Positions 15,284-36,664 of a stretch of 64,000 nt of DNA are shown here, piece after piece. Under the pieces are notes generated by a model, which was not told the DNA's origin, ran no database searches, and worked only from the letters and a program-made list of their open reading frames with translations. The position numbers and the translations under genes were made by a program. How positions within the stretch are numbered: the first letter of the stretch is position 1; each line of letters starts with the position of its first letter. The stretch is from Motilimonas sp. E26 (GTDB lineage Bacteria > Pseudomonadota > Gammaproteobacteria > Enterobacterales > CBDFNC01): the NCBI RefSeq assembly GCF_021278025.1, contig NZ_JAIBHJ010000016.1, positions 1 through 64,000 of the forward strand. The letters are read 5' to 3'.

Positions 15284-18200
15284 TTAACCCTCAAGCCAGT
15301 CAGCCAATATTTGTCCTGCTTCTTCAAATTCATATTCATCAATCAAGTGATCAACTTTATCTGCAACCTCAGGCGCTTGCTTAGCAAGGCCTGTGCGCAA
15401 CTGCTGCCAACGTTGCTGCGCTTCACCACTAGATTGGGCTAATAATTGCTGTAGCTCTAGCCATGCGCTTTGCTTTTCATTGTCTGCGCCTTGATTTGGG
15501 TGCGAAGTCAGTTGCTCTGATACCAATTGCTCAGCAGCGAGCCAAGCTTGTAGTTGTGCTATGGTCGAAGATAAGCAATGATGAAATGGCTCTAAGAGTT
15601 CAAAATTCGCTGCCGTAACAGAATGCCACTGCAACTCTTGCTGCTCGGACAACTTATGTAACTGTTCCAAACCAATATTGCCCGAGGCTCCTTTAAGGCC
15701 ATGTACAATACTTTTTGCTTGCTCTGCATCATTAAACAGTAGGGCTTGCCTAATATTGTCTAAGTCGTTTTGATGCCCTTTCACAAATTCAGCCAACAGC
15801 TCTACTAGCAAGCTAGCATTCCCAGCCAAACGTTTCATTACCGTCTCAAGCTCCACTTCAGGAGGAGACTCAGACCAAGGAAAGGCGCTATCTTTTGTTA
15901 CACTTATTAATTTTTTCGCAACAATTTCACTCGGCTGCTCTTGAGTTATCTGGGTCGTTTCTTGATTAACTTCTTGAGCAATCTCCGAGCTTTCTTTTGC
16001 TGGTGTCGGTAACCATTTTTTTAAAACACGTTTTAGCTCATCAGGATCAATCGGCTTACTAAGGTAATCATCCATTCCTTGTTTCAAACACTTCTCTTTA
16101 TCTCCAGCCATGGCATGAGCGGTCATCGCAATAATCGGAATTTGATGATTTTCTCGTATCAGCTTGGTCGCTTGGTAGCCATCCATCTCAGGCATTTGAA
16201 TATCCATAAAGATAAGGTCAAACTCTTGTTGCTCAACCATGGCTACCGCTTCCACCCCATTTGAAGCTATCTCAATATTAATGCCTAGCGCTTTAATTAA
16301 TTCTCTTGCAACTTGCTGATTAATTAGATTATCTTCTGCTAATAGCACTCTCCCCTCTAGCGTCGAGATTGCCAACGGCTCAGATTTATTGTTATCAGTG
16401 CGCTGACCGAGCAAAATATTGTGTAAGGTATTAAATAACACTGACTGATTAATCGGCTTAGTAATTAAGTCGACAATCCCCGCTCCTTTTGCTTGCTCTA
16501 GTGCATCATCACGACCAAACGATGTCACCATCACTATGGTTGGTAAGTTAAACTGAGATTTTGCTTTAAGTAAGCGCCTGCTGGTTTCAATGCCATCTAG
16601 GCCCGGCATTTTCCAGTCCATCAAAATCAGGTCATAGGCACTGTGGTTATCTTTTAATAGATGCTCAATGGCCGCTTCACCTGACTCCAATACATCCACT
16701 TCCATACCAAATTGGGTTAGCATATCGGAAAAGATCAAACGCGCACTTTCATTATCATCAACGACCAACACCCGCTTGTCTTTCAAGGCACTTTCTTGCG
16801 TCTTTGTCACTTCACCTTCACCAACCACCAAATCAACATAGAAAAAGAACGTGCTACCTTTACCTTGCGTACTCGTTACCCAAATATCACCACCCATTTT
16901 CATCACTAGCTGCTTACTAATGGCAAGGCCTAAGCCGGTGCCACCATATTTACGCGTAGTAGAAGTATCCGCTTGAGTAAAAGATTCAAATAATTGCGAG
17001 ACCTGAGCTTCCGTTAAACCTATACCTGTGTCTTTAACAGCAAAAAGTAATCTAGCTTTTCCTGAACTGGCTGGCTTGGCACTTATTTTAACCAGAACCT
17101 CTCCCGTTTCGGTAAACTTAACCGCATTGCTGGTTAAGTTAGTCAGCACTTGGGCCAATCGAAGTGGATCACCAACCAGATGTGAAGGCACATCGGGCTC
17201 ACAATGCACTAACAACTCAATGTCTTTTTCTTCTGCTTTGGTACTGCACAGTGCCGCAACTTCTTCTAAAATGGCACCCAGCTCGAACGGTACTGACTCT
17301 AACTCCAGCTTGCCTGCTTCAATTTTTGAAAAGTCGAGAATATCGTTAATAATACCAAGCAGGTTACGAGAAGAGGCTTGAATCTTATTAACATAATCTT
17401 CTTGCGTCTCGTCTAAACCCGTTTTCAGCGCTAAGTGACTTAAACCAATAATAGCGTTCATTGGCGTACGGATTTCATGGCTCATGTTAGCCAAAAAATC
17501 ACTCTTATATTGGTTAGCCTGCTCAGCGTCCAGCTTGGCAATATTTAATTCGAGCATAGCCTGCTCAGCACGTTGACGGGCTTCTTCTAGCTCTAATACG
17601 CGCTTTTCTAATTGCTGTTCAGCCGCCTTACGATCGCTGATGTCATACAACCAAAGTAATACACCCTGCTGATTAGATTGCACTAACCGCTCTAGTGATA
17701 AAATTGCCCAAAAAATATGTCCAGAGCGACCCTTTAGCTGCACTTCTCGCGGTCTAACACGACCCGTTGCTTGAAATTCAGACTGACAAGCCGCGCGCTG
17801 TGCTTCATCCACCCAGCCAAACTGATACTGTCCAGGCGTTAATAGAAATGATAAGTCGGCACCTAACAGTTCATACAGCTGCGAGTTAGAATAAATGAGC
17901 CCGCCACCTTCATGCTGAACAATCCCCGCACCAATAGGGCTCAGATCGAGCACATTACGTAAACGTGCTTCATTGTCCCGCAGTGCCAGCTCCATACTTT
18001 TACGCTCAGTAATATCAGATGCTGTGCCGCAAACGCCACTTACGGTGTTAACCTCATCAAAAAGTGCAAAACGACTACGTAAAAAGGTCAGCTGCTGCCC
18101 ATTATTGTCCAGCTCAACCTCCATTTCATCGCCTTGATTTTGCGTTAAGATGCTTTTATCGCCAATGAAAAATAGCCGATGAGCCGCATCTGAAAATGCT

Positions 18201-29151: not shown

Positions 29152-29167
29152 TGGCACGTGTTCTGCA
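29152..29167 (+). promoter_or_regulatory. Sigma-54 (-24/-12) promoter of the BON operon
   Basis: TGGCACGTGTTCTGCA matches the sigma-54 consensus TGGCACG-N4-TTGCA at all but one position, with exact 10-base spacing of GG and GC. The GC doublet is about 55 bp before the BON ATG. This is the strongest of the three promoters. Confidence 0.8.
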
Positions 29168-29220
29168 ATACCTTAGCTGTGACATCAACTTAATCGTTAA
29201 ACTTAAAATGGAGAAATATT

Positions 29221-29784
29221 ATGAAACGCACTCTTATTTCATTAGCTATGGTATCTGCACTTTCTGTTTCAACTGCACAAGCAAACAACGTTTGGGAAAA
29301 AGAAGCAAACGACGCCTGGATTGATGGCAAAGCTGAAGCGACACTTTTATTTAATCCAAATGTTAACTCTTTCGATATCAATACTGATGTAAAAAATGGT
29401 GTAGTGATACTGACAGGTCAAGTGGACCATAACGTTGATAAAAAACTTGCCCGAGAACTAGTACTTGGCATTGATGGCGTAAAAGAAGTCGATAACCAGA
29501 TTACAGTGGTGGAAGGCATCGACCGTAAGGAGCTAGAAAAACAAAGAGGTATGGCTGAATCAAGCTTTACTGATGTCAAAATTGCTACGGTCATCAAAAC
29601 TCGCCTACTGTTTGATACTGATATCAGTGGTACCGATATTGATGTGGACGTTAAAAATAACATCGTCACATTAACTGGTGAAGTGGATTCACAAGCAGAA
29701 AAAGATTTAGCCATTAGTATTGCTAAAAATGCAGAAGATGTGAAAGACGTAACGGCCAACTTAGATATAGTAAAAAGCTCTTAG
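29221..29784 (+). CDS. Periplasmic BON-domain protein (OsmY-like)
   Basis: 187 residues: signal peptide (about 1-21, cleaved after AQA) and two BON domains (about 43-108 and 120-185), each with the V-x-G-x-V pattern (VVILTGQVDH, IVTLTGEVDS). OsmY-type proteins are periplasmic, osmotically induced and thought to act as chaperones or to bind phospholipid. GGAG lies 7 bases before the ATG. First gene after the best sigma-54 promoter; a hairpin separates it from the YqjD-like gene. Confidence 0.92.
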   Translation: MKRTLISLAMVSALSVSTAQANNVWEKEANDAWIDGKAEATLLFNPNVNSFDINTDVKNGVVILTGQVDHNVDKKLARELVLGIDGVKEVDNQITVVEGIDRKELEKQRGMAESSFTDVKIATVIKTRLLFDTDISGTDIDVDVKNNIVTLTGEVDSQAEKDLAISIAKNAEDVKDVTANLDIVKSS

Positions 29785-29794
29785 AATCAAACTC

Positions 29795-29817
29795 ATGACG
29801 CTCATTATGAGCGTCAT
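29795..29817 (+). terminator. Hairpin between BON and YqjD-like genes
   Basis: ATGACGCTCAT-T-ATGAGCGTCAT is a perfect inverted repeat 10 bp after the BON stop. Only a short T-run follows, so it may be a partial terminator that sets the ratio of BON to downstream transcript, or protect the 3' end. Confidence 0.55.
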
Positions 29818-29875
29818 TTCCGCTAACTCAAAAATTTTCCAGAAGTGAATACTTTTTTATTATTGAGGAGACACT

Positions 29876-30199
29876 ATGCCTACCAAGAATACAAATAACG
29901 CAAAAACTGAATCACAACAAGCCAATAATCAGGCGCCGGCTCACCCAGTGGCAGACCAAGTCGCGGCATCACTACACAGCACTGTCGACTCGCTGCATGG
30001 TTCAGCGGCCTCAACAGAGGAGAGTTTAAGAGCAAAAAGTGGCCAATCCAGTGCAGCAATGAAAGCGCAAACACGCCTGCTACAACAAAAATGGAATAAT
30101 TCACCAGTTAAAAAATACGCTTGTGAAAACCCAGTGAAAACAGTAGGTATCGCCTTCACTGCTGGCGCATTGTTAACCATGCTATTAAGGAATAAGTAA
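29876..30199 (+). CDS. YqjD/ElaB-like (DUF883) membrane-anchored protein
   Basis: 107 residues: a hydrophilic, Ala/Gln/Ser-rich N-terminal part likely helical, then ENPVKTVGIAFTAGALLTML, the C-terminal single membrane anchor typical of DUF883 proteins. E. coli YqjD and ElaB bind ribosomes at the inner membrane in stationary phase. GAGGAG precedes the ATG. Followed one base later by the YqjE-like gene. Confidence 0.85.
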   Translation: MPTKNTNNAKTESQQANNQAPAHPVADQVAASLHSTVDSLHGSAASTEESLRAKSGQSSAAMKAQTRLLQQKWNNSPVKKYACENPVKTVGIAFTAGALLTMLLRNK

Positions 30200-30200
30200 G

Positions 30201-30608
30201 ATGCAAGAGTCACAGAGTTCGGGGTATAAAACTCAAGGCTCAGCAGAGCTGGGGGCGCAGCTAAACGCGCTCCCTGCGTTAGGTAGCCGCTTAATAGATA
30301 GTTACGCATGCTTACTTAACGCTGTATTTGCGTTAATAAAAGCCAAAGCAAAGGCTAACTTAAAAATGCTGATTGCTATCATCACCCTGATCGCCACTGC
30401 CGTATTTTTAACTTGTGCCGTATGGGTTGGCTTGCAAGTACTGATTGCTTTCTCGCTCATCAGCCTAGGGTTAAATGTATTTGCGGCTTCTGGCCTTGTG
30501 TTAGTCGCTAACTTGATCGCTATTTATTATCTATTATCCACCGCAAGTTGGTTGTTTGATATCACTTACGATGAGTTTATAGATGGATTTTTTAGTCAGA
30601 TAAAATAG
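30201..30608 (+). CDS. YqjE-like (DUF1469) membrane protein
   Basis: 135 residues with two long hydrophobic segments (about 55-85 and 90-118) separated by a short turn, the layout of YqjE/DUF1469, which databases also list as a phage-holin superfamily. There are no phage genes nearby, and its place between YqjD-like and YqjK-like genes shows it is the stress-operon protein. The start follows the upstream stop by one base. Confidence 0.82.
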   Translation: MQESQSSGYKTQGSAELGAQLNALPALGSRLIDSYACLLNAVFALIKAKAKANLKMLIAIITLIATAVFLTCAVWVGLQVLIAFSLISLGLNVFAASGLVLVANLIAIYYLLSTASWLFDITYDEFIDGFFSQIK

Positions 30609-30615
30609 GATTTTT

Positions 30616-30879
30616 ATGACACGCCTTGCCGATTTTATATATCAATCCGTAAATCAAGATGTCATGGTAAAAAAAGCCAAATATCAAGCCTGTGTGTTCG
30701 ATAGCCATTTACACCAGAAAATCTTGAGCGCCCACTGTAAAAGCCTAGCGAGTTCACCCATCTTCGTTACCGGGGCAGCAATTACATCAATAATCATGTT
30801 GCGCCACGGTAAGTTTTCAACATTAAGAAAATTAGTAATGCTTAAACGATTAGCAGACAGTTTTATAAAACCGAGATAA
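30616..30879 (+). CDS. Small basic protein, YqjK-like position
   Basis: 87 residues, basic, with a weak hydrophobic stretch (SSPIFVTGAAITSIIML). It occupies the place of yqjK in the E. coli yqjCDEK operon, but I cannot confirm homology by eye. AGGATTTTT precedes the ATG; 7 bp separate it from the YqjE-like gene. Last gene of the BON operon. Confidence 0.7.
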   Translation: MTRLADFIYQSVNQDVMVKKAKYQACVFDSHLHQKILSAHCKSLASSPIFVTGAAITSIIMLRHGKFSTLRKLVMLKRLADSFIKPR

Positions 30880-31051: not shown

Positions 31052-33007
31052 TTAAGTTAACAATGCGCTCAAATCCGACAATGAAACAGGCTTTAACAAT
31101 ACATGCGCTATCCCCAGCGACACTAACTGTTCTGGCTCTGGTTCATAACCACTGATAATAGCCAAATTTTGTTCCGAGTTTTGTGCCCTAATTTGCGTGG
31201 CGGCATCCAACCCTGAGCCATCAGGCAACATTAAGTCAAGGATCACTAAATCAAGGGCATCAACCTGGCTATAAAAGGCTAAACAAGATTGAATACTGGC
31301 CGCACAATAAACTTCGGCTCCCAATGACTTAAGCAGCATGCACATCAACTCACGAGCATCATCATCATCTTCTACTAATAGTATTTTTTTGCCTGACTTA
31401 CCGGGTTGTTCATTATTGCTCGCTAACGAGCTGACACTGGCTTGCGGATGTAAAAAATGCGCTAAGCAAGCTTGTAATTGTGCGGTGTCTATCGGCTTAG
31501 TCAACACGCGATTAAATCCAAGTGCTTGTAAAGTCTCTTCACTGCCTTTTAGTGCGGCGGCTGTTAACGCCACAATTGGCAGCTCAAGCCCTTGATTTCT
31601 TGCTGCGACTACAACATCTCGTCCACCCATCACAGGCATGTGAAGGTCCATGAAAACCAAATCAAAATGATGCTGCTTACCTGTTAACAGAGCCAAACCT
31701 TGCTGACCGTCTGCCACACTGGTAACCGTCACGCCGGTAGCTGAAATAATATTACAAAGTAAAGTGCGTATTTCTGGAACATCTTCAACAACCAGCACTT
31801 GGCCATTAAGTTTCATTGGCCGTGATGCTTCTTTCTCTTGTCCCACTAACGGTGGAGCAAGAATAAGTGGTACTAAGTTAGGTCGCTTTAAGCCCGTATC
31901 AATAGAGAAGGTGAAAGTACTACCAACACCTAAAACTGATTCTACTTTTAGCTCCCCACCTAGTAACTCGATTAACGAAGCGCTGATGGCCAAGCCCAAA
32001 CCAGCGCCCTCTTCCGTGCGGGTCGTCACCTCCTGCACTTGTTCGAAAGGTTTAAAAATTCGCTTTAACTTATCCTTTGGTATACCGATCCCAGTGTCCA
32101 CCACTGAAAAAAATAACAACCCCTTTTCGGCTTGCTGCTGATACCTTAAATCGACGGAGACCTGACCAGACTCGGTAAATTTTATCGCATTGTATATGGT
32201 GTTAATCAACACTTGCTTGAGTCGAGTTGAGTCAGAAAAAATTGATTCGGGCAGTCGCTCCTTGCTGTTAATCTTAAAGCTAAGACCTTTTCTAGCCGCA
32301 GCCATATTAAATAAACTTTGTAAATCTGCTAAAAAAGGCGATAGCAAAAAGGTATCTTTATTCAAAGATAAGCTATTTTCTCTGATTTTGGATAGATCGA
32401 GCACCTCATTAAGCAGCGCTAATAAGTGCTGACTATTACTATTAATAATTGATAACTCTGGCTTAATCGCATCGAGCTCGGCTCGACTGAGCAGTAAGTC
32501 GGTGTAACCAATAATAGAAGTTAATGGCGTCCGCAATTCATGGCTTAAGTGCGCTAAAAACCGATCTTTAGCACGGCTGTCTGACTCAATTCTCAAGCGC
32601 TCTAACCTTTCATTTTCCAACTCTTTGCGCGCAAGAGCGTAACGAATGGCACGGATAAAACGCACACTATTAATTTCCGATTTTACCAGAAAATCTTCAG
32701 CCCCCAACGCTAACGCTTTGGCATCAAGCACTTCGTCAACCTGCCCCGTTAGCATGATAAAAGGCGTGTCACAGCCCATTGCTTTAGCTGCTTCTAGTAC
32801 TGAAAGTCCAGTATGAGCGCCCAATTGGTAGTCAAGTAAACATAAGTCGAACGACTCTTGTTGCAATATCTCAACAATCGATTGATAGTCACTTAACCAT
32901 TTAATTTCAAATGTAAAATCTGGTATTTCTTGCAAATAATCCATGGCAAGAATGTAGTCATCTTCATCATCTTCAACCAGTAGTAACTTAACAATGCGAT
33001 TATCCAT
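31052..33007 (-). CDS. Hybrid histidine kinase REC-HisKA-HATPase-REC-REC
   Basis: 651 cytoplasmic residues with no membrane segment: receiver (about 7-125; LVEDDEDD, Asp in CLLDYQL), HisKA (LAHLSHELRTPLTS, near 155), ATPase domain (about 260-375; DTGIGIPKDKL, GAGLGLAIS), receiver 2 (about 398-515, Asp in LVFMDLHMP), receiver 3 (about 540-650, Asp in LVILDLMLP). The N-terminal receiver suggests it takes phosphate or a signal from another protein, probably the kinase encoded upstream. No Hpt is fused, so a separate one is needed to pass phosphate on. Last gene of the signalling operon. Confidence 0.92.
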   Translation of the reverse strand: MDNRIVKLLLVEDDEDDYILAMDYLQEIPDFTFEIKWLSDYQSIVEILQQESFDLCLLDYQLGAHTGLSVLEAAKAMGCDTPFIMLTGQVDEVLDAKALALGAEDFLVKSEINSVRFIRAIRYALARKELENERLERLRIESDSRAKDRFLAHLSHELRTPLTSIIGYTDLLLSRAELDAIKPELSIINSNSQHLLALLNEVLDLSKIRENSLSLNKDTFLLSPFLADLQSLFNMAAARKGLSFKINSKERLPESIFSDSTRLKQVLINTIYNAIKFTESGQVSVDLRYQQQAEKGLLFFSVVDTGIGIPKDKLKRIFKPFEQVQEVTTRTEEGAGLGLAISASLIELLGGELKVESVLGVGSTFTFSIDTGLKRPNLVPLILAPPLVGQEKEASRPMKLNGQVLVVEDVPEIRTLLCNIISATGVTVTSVADGQQGLALLTGKQHHFDLVFMDLHMPVMGGRDVVVAARNQGLELPIVALTAAALKGSEETLQALGFNRVLTKPIDTAQLQACLAHFLHPQASVSSLASNNEQPGKSGKKILLVEDDDDARELMCMLLKSLGAEVYCAASIQSCLAFYSQVDALDLVILDLMLPDGSGLDAATQIRAQNSEQNLAIISGYEPEPEQLVSLGIAHVLLKPVSLSDLSALLT

Positions 33008-33057: not shown

Positions 33058-33537
33058 TTAAGGCAGCTCAACGATCTCAATCCAATATTTGCCTAAATGT
33101 TTCATTAGCTCAACCAACCCTTCAAAATTAACGGGCTTAGCAATATAAGAGGCCGCACCTAGATCATAACCACGAAGCTTGTCTTCTTCCTCTTTGGAAG
33201 TGGTTAATATCACCACAGGAATTGAACGTAAATCCGCATCTGCTTTAATGACTTTAAGGGCTTCACGACCATCCATTCTCGGCATATTTAAATCAAGTAA
33301 GATCAAACTCGGGCGAGGATAAAGCTCACGGTCTTGATAACGCCCTTCATTGCGTAAGTACTCAATCAGTTCTACGCCGTCATTAACAAAATTAATCGTG
33401 TTTAACACTCTGCTTTCATCAAGAGCGTCTTGAGTCAGCATGCGATCATCTTCATCATCATCTGCCATTAGAATACTAATTGCTTGGGGTTTTAAGTAAT
33501 TCAACTTTTCCGTCCTCAACTGTAAAAAGGTCTGCAT
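33058..33537 (-). CDS. Single-domain response regulator (Rcp1/CheY-like)
   Basis: A lone receiver domain with ILMADDDEDDRML (acidic pocket), LILLDLNMPRMDG (phospho-acceptor Asp), the VILTTSKEEED Thr and the AKPVNFEG Lys. The Rcp1 type typically serves soluble or CHASE3 kinases. With the ATG at 33537 it overlaps the upstream kinase by 62 bp; a TTG at 33504, preceded by GAGGACGGAAAAG, would give 148 residues and an overlap of 29 bp, closer to the family norm. With no output domain, it must act by protein contact or as a phosphate shuttle. Confidence 0.9.
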   Translation of the reverse strand: MQTFLQLRTEKLNYLKPQAISILMADDDEDDRMLTQDALDESRVLNTINFVNDGVELIEYLRNEGRYQDRELYPRPSLILLDLNMPRMDGREALKVIKADADLRSIPVVILTTSKEEEDKLRGYDLGAASYIAKPVNFEGLVELMKHLGKYWIEIVELP

Positions 33538-34993
33538 CTATGGGCAGTAATATAGTAAAAGTAGCACCGACACCTGGTGTGCTGGATGCAGAAATTTGGC
33601 CACTATGGCGCTCGATGATCCGCCGACAAACGGCTAAGCCTATGCCTGTTCCGGCATATTCACTGCGACTGTGCAGGCGTTGAAATGGAGTAAATATTTT
33701 TTCACTGTATTGCTCTGAAAAACCAATGCCATTATCAGCTATAGTGAGTTCAAGCCAAGGTTTATCATTCGATATGTTCGCCTGTACAGGAGGGCTAATA
33801 CTATTAGCTCCGATGATGATATTGGGTGTTTGCTCTGGTTCGCGAAATTTAATCGCATTAGAAATTAAGTTTGAAAATAACTGACTCAACTGGCTGGCAT
33901 CAGCTTGAATGCAGGGCAGTGAAGCGACCGTAATTTGGGCCCCACTGTCTTGGATTGCAATTTCTAAGTCATCGAGCACTCGCATTAACAAGTCATTGAG
34001 ATCAACCAACTGGAAAGGCTTGCCTCGCGTGGTAACACGAGAAAGCTCTAATAAGTCACTGATCAAAACAGACATACGCTGCGCTGCTGAGTTCATACGA
34101 GCTAAATAATCCATGCCCCTGTCACCAAGCTGATCCGCATAATTACTGCTAAGACGGTCACCAAAAGCACGAATTTTTCTCAGTGGCTCTTGCAGATCAT
34201 GGGAAGCAACAAACGCAAAATCTTCTAGCTCTCGGTTACTTCGATTTAGCTCTTCGGCATACACTTCCAGTGCGTGAGTGCGCTCTTGCACCTTCGACTC
34301 TAGCTGGGCATTGTATTTCTCTAAATTGCTTTTTGCCGTTCGAATACTATTTAAATGTTTTGCTAGCAGCACCAATACCGCACCAGACATCAGTATGCTG
34401 AGCAACGTAAACCAAATAATATTACGGTTTGCCTTAGCTCGAGAGTCATCTAAGCGAGCAAGCAAGTCATTGCGAATATTGGTTTCCTGGATAATAATCG
34501 ATTGATACAAATGGCGAATATTCATTTGAGTTAAATCAACTTCTTCCTCACCCTGCTGCGCAACTTCTGCCCCTAACCCTACCGCGAGTTCAACACTTTC
34601 CTGCAACGACTTCAGCTTAGCTTCTGCAAGCCGAGCGAAAGCATCAATTCTTTGCTGCTGTTCGTGGCTTTGTGATTGAACCTGTTCTACTTGCTTTAAG
34701 CTGTCAGAAAATTTTTCCAAAGCTTTAATGAAAGGCTCAAGATGGCTGGCGTTTTCTGATAATAAATATCCCCGTTGACCCGTTTCAGCGTTCAAAATAT
34801 CAATATGCAGGCTATCGACGACCAACATGACTTTACTGGTGTTTTGTAACCGCTTTTGTATGTTTGCCAAATCCTGAATATTATCAAGACCAATGGCTGC
34901 ATTAACAATAATCGCTACCACAATGATCGCCGCACCTAACCACGCCAAACTAGTGGTATTTAACCGATTGTAAAGGCTTGATAGCTGCATCAA
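33476..34993 (-). CDS. CHASE3 sensor histidine kinase
   Basis: 505 residues: membrane segment (about 17-37), CHASE3-type helical periplasmic domain (about 38-190, with NAETGQRGYLLSEN, the CHASE3 signature), second membrane segment (about 195-215), coiled coil, HisKA (ASHDLQEPLRKI), ATPase domain (NLISNAIKF, ADNGIGF, GTGIGLAVCRRI). The HDLQEPL type is typical of kinases paired with Rcp1-type regulators. The receiver gene overlaps its 3' end, strong evidence for a pair. Confidence 0.93.
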   Translation of the reverse strand: MMQLSSLYNRLNTTSLAWLGAAIIVVAIIVNAAIGLDNIQDLANIQKRLQNTSKVMLVVDSLHIDILNAETGQRGYLLSENASHLEPFIKALEKFSDSLKQVEQVQSQSHEQQQRIDAFARLAEAKLKSLQESVELAVGLGAEVAQQGEEEVDLTQMNIRHLYQSIIIQETNIRNDLLARLDDSRAKANRNIIWFTLLSILMSGAVLVLLAKHLNSIRTAKSNLEKYNAQLESKVQERTHALEVYAEELNRSNRELEDFAFVASHDLQEPLRKIRAFGDRLSSNYADQLGDRGMDYLARMNSAAQRMSVLISDLLELSRVTTRGKPFQLVDLNDLLMRVLDDLEIAIQDSGAQITVASLPCIQADASQLSQLFSNLISNAIKFREPEQTPNIIIGANSISPPVQANISNDKPWLELTIADNGIGFSEQYSEKIFTPFQRLHSRSEYAGTGIGLAVCRRIIERHSGQISASSTPGVGATFTILLPIDADLFTVEDGKVELLKTPSN

Positions 34994-35010: not shown

Positions 35011-35205
35011 CTATTTAACGAGAGTTTGCAGGATAGCGCTGCATTCTTTAGCGGCTTTAATGATCTGGTCTGCGGCTTGTTTTAAATCTGTTTCACTCGC
35101 TGATTGATCGGCCATCAGCTTAATTAACTCTGCGTGCATTGAAATATGATTAAGGGGTTTACGCGCATCATGGATGACGGTTTCTAACTCTTCTGGCTGC
35201 TGCAT
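35011..35205 (-). CDS. Small lone HisKA/Hpt-like protein
   Basis: 64 residues, wholly helical, containing IHDARKPLNHISMHAEL, which resembles the H-box of HisKA domains (compare SHDLQEPLRKI in the next gene), then a second helix. There is no ATPase domain. It could be a stand-alone dimerisation/phosphotransfer domain that passes phosphate between the receivers of this operon. It lies between the NtrC-type regulator (25 bp) and the CHASE3 kinase (17 bp), in the same direction. Homology is by eye; the function is inferred. Confidence 0.75.
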   Translation of the reverse strand: MQQPEELETVIHDARKPLNHISMHAELIKLMADQSASETDLKQAADQIIKAAKECSAILQTLVK

Positions 35206-35230
35206 TTCCCATCACTCCTTTGGGTTGATT

Positions 35231-36664
35231 TTAAGGTGCGGAAGACTCTTCATAAGCATTCAGGCGGTTGTATAATGTTTTGGTGCTAATACCCAGCATT
35301 TTAGCAGCATTAGTTTTGTTACCTTCTACTGAAGCCAACGTCTTATAGATCAATTCTTTTTCAAGTTCATCAATCGTTTGGCCAACGGTAATTGAAGTTT
35401 CCACGGCTGTTATCGGTGCGCTAGGTGCGACATATTGTAAGTTAGCAGGCTCGGAATCAGCCGAAACGTTGACTGCGTTCGCGCCTCCTTTCCCCGTAAG
35501 TGAGTCTCGCGCAAGAGAGAAAGGAGACTCAAAAGTAGTCGGAAAAACCAGATTGCCCGCTTGCATATCAGCCATAATAAAGGCGCGATGAATGGTGTGC
35601 TTTAACTCGCGAATATTACCTGGCCAATGATGCTCTAAAAGCTTTGCCATATCTTCATCTCGCAGGCGAAGTTGACTACTATGTTCTTTGTTTAATAACC
35701 CTAAAAAATAATGTGCAAGCAAAGGAATATCTTCTTTACGAGCCCGTAAGGGAGGAATCGTGATAGGAAAAACGGCTAAGCGAAAATACACATCTTCGCG
35801 TAGCACATTGTTCATTGCAATATCTTCTACAGTGCGATTCGTTGCTGAAACGACACGACAATTAATAGGGATGCTCTTATTACCACCCACTCGAGTAACC
35901 GTTTGTGTTTCTAACACACGCAATAAATTTGGTTGCATATCAATAGGCATTTCAGTTAGCTCATCCAAAAACAAGGTACCACCTTGAGCTAATTCAAAAA
36001 CCCCCTGTTTTTGTCCACTTGCACCAGTAAACGCCCCTTTTTCGTGACCAAATAACTCACTGCCAATCAAGTCTTTCGGGATCGCTCCACAGTTAACAGA
36101 AACACGCTCTCCAGTATATTCACTGGCATTATGTATTGCTTGTGCCACCATTTCTTTACCGACACCACTTTCACCCAGCAACATGACATTGGCATTGGTT
36201 TTTGCCACCCGCTCAATCATGGTGTACATCTCTTTCATTGGTGCTGATTCGCCAAGTAAGCAGTCAAAGTAAAGCACAGCATCGGGTTGTTCTTTGTTCG
36301 CTTTAGCTCGAGCCGAGCGAGGATAAAAAATTGCTTTAAGGTCTTCCGCCTCAATAGGTTTAGTTAAATGACCAATATCATCATGGCACATCGCTGAAAT
36401 GGCTGTTTTAACCGCCGGATGACCAGTGATCATAGTAATAGTTGACTTAATTTTATTCGCTTTTACGAAATCAATTAAATGCAAGCCACTGCCATCAGGC
36501 AACATAAAGTCGAGTAAAATATGATCGAATAACTGGCTATTCAGCCACTGCTTTGCTTCTGCCAAAGTGGCGGCAGAATAAACATCGCAATCAAGATATT
36601 CAATAATACGACAAGCTAACTCAGTAAATTCAAGATCGTCATCAACGAGTAAAACTGTCTTCAC
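35231..36664 (-). CDS. Sigma-54-dependent response regulator (NtrC family)
   Basis: 477 residues: receiver (about 1-118; LLVDDD, Asp in ILLDFMLP), AAA+ domain (about 135-370) with Walker A GESGVGKEM, the sigma-54 contact loop GAFTGA, Walker B GTLFLDELTE and the arginine finger region, then a Fis-type helix-turn-helix (about 435-474, KTNAAKMLGISTKTLYNRL). All parts needed to activate sigma-54 holoenzyme are present. First gene of the signalling operon and facing a block with three sigma-54-type promoters, it is their likely activator. Confidence 0.94.
   Translation of the reverse strand: MKTVLLVDDDLEFTELACRIIEYLDCDVYSAATLAEAKQWLNSQLFDHILLDFMLPDGSGLHLIDFVKANKIKSTITMITGHPAVKTAISAMCHDDIGHLTKPIEAEDLKAIFYPRSARAKANKEQPDAVLYFDCLLGESAPMKEMYTMIERVAKTNANVMLLGESGVGKEMVAQAIHNASEYTGERVSVNCGAIPKDLIGSELFGHEKGAFTGASGQKQGVFELAQGGTLFLDELTEMPIDMQPNLLRVLETQTVTRVGGNKSIPINCRVVSATNRTVEDIAMNNVLREDVYFRLAVFPITIPPLRARKEDIPLLAHYFLGLLNKEHSSQLRLRDEDMAKLLEHHWPGNIRELKHTIHRAFIMADMQAGNLVFPTTFESPFSLARDSLTGKGGANAVNVSADSEPANLQYVAPSAPITAVETSITVGQTIDELEKELIYKTLASVEGNKTNAAKMLGISTKTLYNRLNAYEESSAP

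Follow-up and report, generated by a model that had tools for sequence, protein, structure and literature searches.

What does a histidine phosphorylation domain do when it is encoded on its own, between a response regulator gene and a sensor kinase gene? This question is raised by a 64-codon gene in the DNA of Motilimonas sp. E26 analysed here (the window, 64,000 nucleotides of contig NZ_JAIBHJ010000016.1). A preliminary description of the locus had taken its product for a stand-alone HisKA H-box protein without an ATPase domain, and perhaps for the missing phosphotransfer hub of its operon. The gene and its neighbours are arranged as follows.

35231..36664, minus strand: NtrC-type sigma-54 activator, REC-AAA+-Fis HTH, the probable phosphate receiver (Pfam; residues)
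35215..35221, minus strand: Shine-Dalgarno sequence AAAGGAG, 9 nt before the ATG of the H-box gene (sequence)
35011..35205, minus strand: H-box protein, a 64-aa stand-alone HisKA/DHp hairpin (ORF listing, Pfam, alignment, AlphaFold)
35170..35172, minus strand: codon of the invariant phospho-acceptor His12 (sequence, 46-row alignment, structural register)
33476..34993, minus strand: CHASE3-HisKA-HATPase sensor kinase (Pfam; residues; present in all 22 of the 22 genomes that have the H-box gene)
33058..33537, minus strand: single-domain receiver of 159 aa, Rcp1-like (Pfam; Asp and Lys in 45/45)
31052..33007, minus strand: hybrid kinase REC-HisKA-HATPase-REC-REC (Pfam; residues; receiver comparison)

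The H-box gene lies 25 nt after the NtrC-type gene and 17 nt before the CHASE3 kinase gene. Counted from the first ATG, the ORFs of the CHASE3 kinase and the receiver overlap by 62 nt (33476-33537, minus strand), and the true start of the 159-aa receiver may lie further in.

A protein made up of a HisKA domain alone

The ORF was exact at 35011-35205, and IHDARKPLNHIS in its product is a genuine HisKA H-box recognised by Pfam. Using HMMER, the protein matched PF00512 with E=3.8e-5 and 24.1 bits, just below the cut-off of 26.9, and its residues 7-62 aligned to profile positions 6-57 of 66. The same profile was matched by 45 of the 46 family members, and two diverged copies described below passed the cut-off with 32.4 and 27.9 bits. 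A sequence search of the PDB with the family profile gave no significant match (best KdpD, E=0.14). The AlphaFold monomer, modelled with 46 sequences, consisted of two antiparallel helices (residues 4-33 and 38-60; mean pLDDT 92.8), with the phospho-acceptor His of the H-box on the first. The best PDB match of this hairpin by Foldseek was the DHp domain of HK853 (TM 0.82, 1.3 A over 59 columns, 25% identity), at an E-value of 0.07, a weak value such as any short hairpin gives. A second structural aligner placed residues 1-64 on residues 249-311 of HK853, and on EnvZ starting at residue 232; counted along the aligned ranges, His12 falls on the phospho-acceptors H260 of HK853 and H243 of EnvZ. 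DALI-like scores were non-discriminating, with Z of 8-9 for any helical hairpin, and only the register of the HK853 and EnvZ alignments was used.

The H-box protein consists of a HisKA domain and nothing more, as the preliminary description had proposed. From what holds for the HisKA family, two copies of the hairpin would pair into a dimeric four-helix bundle. The HATPase catalytic domain that a histidine kinase carries in the same protein is absent, the 64 aa comprising the hairpin only. No match to the Hpt domain of the LuxU type (PF01627) was obtained at E<=1, and the C-terminal ATPase-like domain of the ChpT/Spo0B type is lacking, since the chain stops shortly past the hairpin in every orthologue. 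Among the 44 HisKA matches in the genome, that of the H-box protein is the only one in a frame shorter than 230 aa.

The histidine and the gene order are conserved

A scan of 84,980 species genomes recovered 45 relatives of the H-box protein, chiefly in Colwellia, Pseudoalteromonas, Alteromonas, Salinimonas, and Aestuariibacter. HDARKPLN, M23, E26, and K29 were invariant in the resulting alignment (46/46). His12 was retained in all operon-linked copies examined, namely the 46-row alignment and 21 further operon copies, two sets in which some species may occur twice. Among close orthologue pairs the median dN/dS of the gene was 0.06, and synonymous changes dominated. A chance ORF was ruled out by the orthologues, the dN/dS, and the invariant residues, and a fragment of the neighbouring kinase gene or a pseudogene by the presence of the same short gene in every operon.

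All 45 loci of this five-gene operon of marine bacteria had the same order of NtrC, H-box protein, CHASE3 kinase, Rcp1-like receiver, and hybrid kinase. It had been expected that orthologues would keep the His and would always lie beside an NtrC-type gene, and both expectations were borne out. Within the order, the H-box gene was found in 22 of 394 genomes (E<=1e-6), and a CHASE3 kinase orthologue (E<=1e-80) in exactly the same 22. The species' own genus and GTDB family were represented by four genomes; the window species has the operon, and the three congeners have neither the H-box gene nor the operon. A class-wide profile search (E<=1e-5) returned no stand-alone copies in other orders, only NtrB-like kinases.

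We found the remaining parts of the operon intact. Both kinases keep their His and ATPase residues, including the N and G1 boxes, in 45/45 loci; the Asp, Thr, and Lys of the NtrC REC and the AAA+ residues are likewise invariant in 45/45. The receivers keep Asp and Lys in 45/45 loci, or 44/45 for the first hybrid receiver on account of an alignment gap. The earlier count of four receivers besides that of NtrC was right, but they reside in two proteins and not in three, the hybrid kinase having three and the 159-aa protein one, with NtrC providing the fifth. The accompanying statement that the operon has no recognisable Hpt agreed with our search, in which no operon protein matched PF01627 at E<=1. 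The genome does have canonical Hpt relays, given a 1250-aa frame with HisKA and a C-terminal Hpt at 15542-17506 of the window (minus strand). In addition, a frame of 112 aa at G000:C12:247385 has an Hpt match below the threshold.

Residues around the histidine and the activity of the hairpin

Given an invariant His and no catalytic domain, the hairpin could take part in phosphate transfer in several ways. In HisKA proteins, only the kinase reaction depends on the acid that follows the His, and phosphatase activity requires T or N at position H+4 (PMC3510030). The acid was kept in 46/46 rows of the alignment and in nearly all copies overall, although the hairpin carries no ATPase; this would be equally in keeping with an operon kinase phosphorylating the His in trans. 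In such a split kinase, of which M. tuberculosis has an example, the ATPase of the CHASE3 or hybrid kinase would phosphorylate His12 from ATP, and the hairpin, a detached substrate domain without any receiver-to-receiver shuttle, would then phosphorylate NtrC. The intact N and G1 boxes of both operon kinases agree with this arrangement. However, it leaves the intact extra receivers of the hybrid kinase without explanation, and the acid has been lost from two diverged copies (HS.RN and HN.RN) and from one operon copy (HNTRG), yet the His is kept in all three. We regard a split kinase as rather unlikely.

The hairpin could instead be a dedicated phosphatase or phosphate sink that strips phosphate from NtrC, given that EnvZ and NtrB need no more than their DHp domains to act as phosphatases (PMC3510030). 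Position H+4 argues against this. It is occupied by Lys, Gly, or Ala, and never by Thr or Asn, in every operon-linked copy examined (the 46-row alignment and 21 more), with Lys16 in the window protein; a canonical phosphatase role is therefore unlikely for the operon-linked hairpin. Moreover, the phosphatase activity of EnvZ does not require the His (PMC3510030), while the His is invariant in the hairpin family. The diverged copies beside REC-GGDEF genes and a second NtrC gene do have the Asn at H+4 that this explanation calls for. With that residue present and the acid gone in two of them, their balance of activities may differ. We give the phosphatase explanation little chance overall.

Acceptance of phosphate from a receiver must also be considered with respect to H+4. 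Large or charged residues at this position of the Hpt protein Ypd1 nearly abolish phospho-acceptance from a receiver, but DHp domains dock differently from Ypd1 according to the same authors (PMC6341664), so that the Lys of the window protein is a reason for caution only.

We further compared the divergence of the hairpin with that of the operon receivers. The pairwise divergence of the hairpin was correlated most closely with that of the NtrC receiver (r=0.964, partial 0.37) and least with that of REC3, the third receiver in the hybrid kinase (r=0.805), in a mirror-tree signal that is small and drawn from non-independent samples. REC3, the last receiver in that kinase, is at the same time the one in the operon that most resembles the NtrC receiver. 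The mirror-tree data give no support for the third hybrid receiver as phosphate donor, and our reading of the sequence comparisons is that NtrC is the constant partner of the hairpin.

Diverged copies and the origin of the hairpin

Three operon-bearing genomes contain a second, diverged H-box copy. In L074 this copy comes after another NtrC-type gene, next to a bacteriophytochrome hybrid kinase that ends in a receiver. In L073 and L075 a REC-GGDEF gene precedes the copy, and a few kb away there is a PAS hybrid kinase with a terminal receiver. No Hpt match was found in the hybrid kinases near the diverged copies. The hairpin thus directly follows output response regulators of two kinds, in each case with a hybrid kinase that has a terminal receiver and no Hpt nearby, as one would expect for a partner in phosphotransfer. 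The REC-GGDEF and hairpin gene pairs, with the H-box motifs HS.RN and HN.RN, lie at 6650-7900 of L073 and at 4667-5917 of L075; they are possibly a relay into cyclic-di-GMP signalling.

Elsewhere in the class, the only full-length kinases reached by the family profile (E<=1e-5) were NtrB/DctB-like, and the best other match in the genus was of the same kind; the motifs of these kinases are GIAHExNNPLN and GIAHELNQPLQ. The NtrB/DctB-like class pairs with NtrC-type regulators. Since the nearest full-length kinases belong to this class, the hairpin probably descends from a kinase of this kind.

This relationship bears on a further explanation, in which the hairpin is a non-catalytic adaptor or decoy that mixes into dimers with a kinase DHp, or occupies and blocks the NtrC receiver. 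DHp domains dimerise, and the size and fold of the hairpin would allow such a role. An adaptor or decoy, however, has no need for an invariant phospho-acceptor His, Arg, and entire H-box, and the nearest full-length relatives are NtrB-like kinases and neither of the operon kinases. We hold this explanation to be highly improbable.

A partial copy of the locus was observed on the E. coli plasmid pB39_C (L047, NZ_OQ420468.1, 3859-5087), where a Tn3-family transposase and erm(42) flank a truncated NtrC gene together with some 30 codons from the start of an H-box gene (HDVRKPLN). The sequence adjoining this resistance gene on pB39_C thus seems to derive from an Alteromonadales-like chromosome.

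A BON-domain envelope gene is the probable output

Two features on the opposite strand concern the output of NtrC.

29152..29167, plus strand: sigma-54 -24/-12 element TGGCACGTGTTCTGCA, the best of the window (11/12)
29221..29784, plus strand: BON-domain envelope protein, probable NtrC target (Pfam; co-occurrence)

A window-wide sigma-54 scan gave a count of elements not above chance, and only position-specific conservation upstream of BON was counted as informative. Most of the 20 BON genes compared have a similar element, placed at approximately -49 to -57. The BON gene was present in 19/19 operon-bearing genomes tested and absent from 32 of the 35 genomes without the operon. In the three operon-less genomes that have it, the gene adjoins a different NtrC-type gene, and two of these three BON genes also have a sigma-54 element, which argues that sigma-54 control of the BON gene predates the operon. 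On this comparison of genomes, the relay would be one way of driving an envelope gene whose sigma-54 control is older, and NtrC probably regulates the BON-domain gene via its sigma-54 promoter.

In the window, the BON gene is followed by a DUF883-like gene and two small genes, the group being convergent with the operon (29152-30879, plus strand). In relatives, genes for MscS and DUF2383 proteins are repeatedly found close by. In two operon-less genomes (L159, 10431-11816; L160, 9656-11062), BON lies beside NtrC-type activators with an N-terminal domain unlike a canonical receiver.

Proposed mechanism and comparison with known systems

The best explanation, and in our judgement a reasonably probable one, is that the H-box protein is a histidine phosphotransfer protein pared down to one DHp hairpin. 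Two hairpins would form a four-helix bundle, as in the HisKA family. The phosphate would come to His12 from a phosphorylated operon receiver, perhaps REC3 of the hybrid kinase, and would go from there to the receiver of NtrC, whose gene lies immediately upstream. Phospho-NtrC would then activate sigma-54 promoters, a probable target being the promoter of the BON-domain envelope gene, which lies at a distance of a few kb. A phosphotransfer role, as anticipated in the preliminary description, is the reading that best suits the anatomy of the operon and the diverged copies, and the evidence favours a dedicated partner of NtrC over a many-way hub.

It is also conceivable, though we would stop somewhat short of calling it probable, that the protein represents a class of bare single-DHp-hairpin phosphotransfer proteins, perhaps the smallest kind. 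Such a class would have arisen from an NtrB-like kinase by loss of the sensor and ATPase and been duplicated to serve response regulators of both the NtrC and the diguanylate-cyclase type. The role of each copy would then depend on whether the phosphatase residue was lost or kept. If true, a natural hairpin of ~64-80 residues acting alone sets a lower limit for His-Asp phosphotransfer, shows a kinase pared down to its partner-recognition part, and offers a ready-made part for rewiring signalling. The natural system makes the question of relay versus phosphatase directly testable for a lone DHp hairpin.

In known phosphorelays, the transfer step falls either to a protein of the Hpt fold or to one that resembles a kinase and carries an additional, degenerate ATPase-like domain. 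Our literature search, which covered part of the literature, yielded no described example of a natural stand-alone DHp protein. The closest artificial counterparts are isolated DHp constructs of EnvZ and NtrB, which, like the H-box protein, are hairpins without an ATPase, and the hairpin superposes on the EnvZ DHp. These constructs, however, are fragments with phosphatase activity (PMC3510030), whereas the H-box gene is natural and its product lacks the phosphatase residue.

LuxU is a monomeric Hpt-fold protein. The LuxU-LuxO pair of Vibrio quorum sensing resembles the proposed relay in that a small phosphotransfer protein serves an NtrC-type sigma-54 activator and is fed by hybrid kinases, but LuxU has the Hpt fold and the H-box protein a HisKA match. 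In Spo0B, the helical hairpins of two subunits build the phosphotransferase four-helix bundle (PMC3433190). This protein of the Bacillus sporulation relay therefore resembles the proposed H-box dimer, whose bundle would likewise come from the hairpins of two subunits, in a comparison made by architecture and not by sequence. Unlike the H-box protein, Spo0B has an extra C-terminal domain. ChpT is a dimer in which residues 20-83 form a 64-residue DHp hairpin; the His of this hairpin carries phosphate between a hybrid kinase, CckA, and the regulator CtrA (PMC3433190). The H-box protein shares the 64-residue hairpin with ChpT, which was a weak Foldseek match, but the Caulobacter protein has a C-terminal Bergerat-like domain and belongs to another operon and lineage. 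By analogy with these systems, we judge that the H-box protein would act like ChpT, Spo0B, or LuxU, yet belongs to none of their families.
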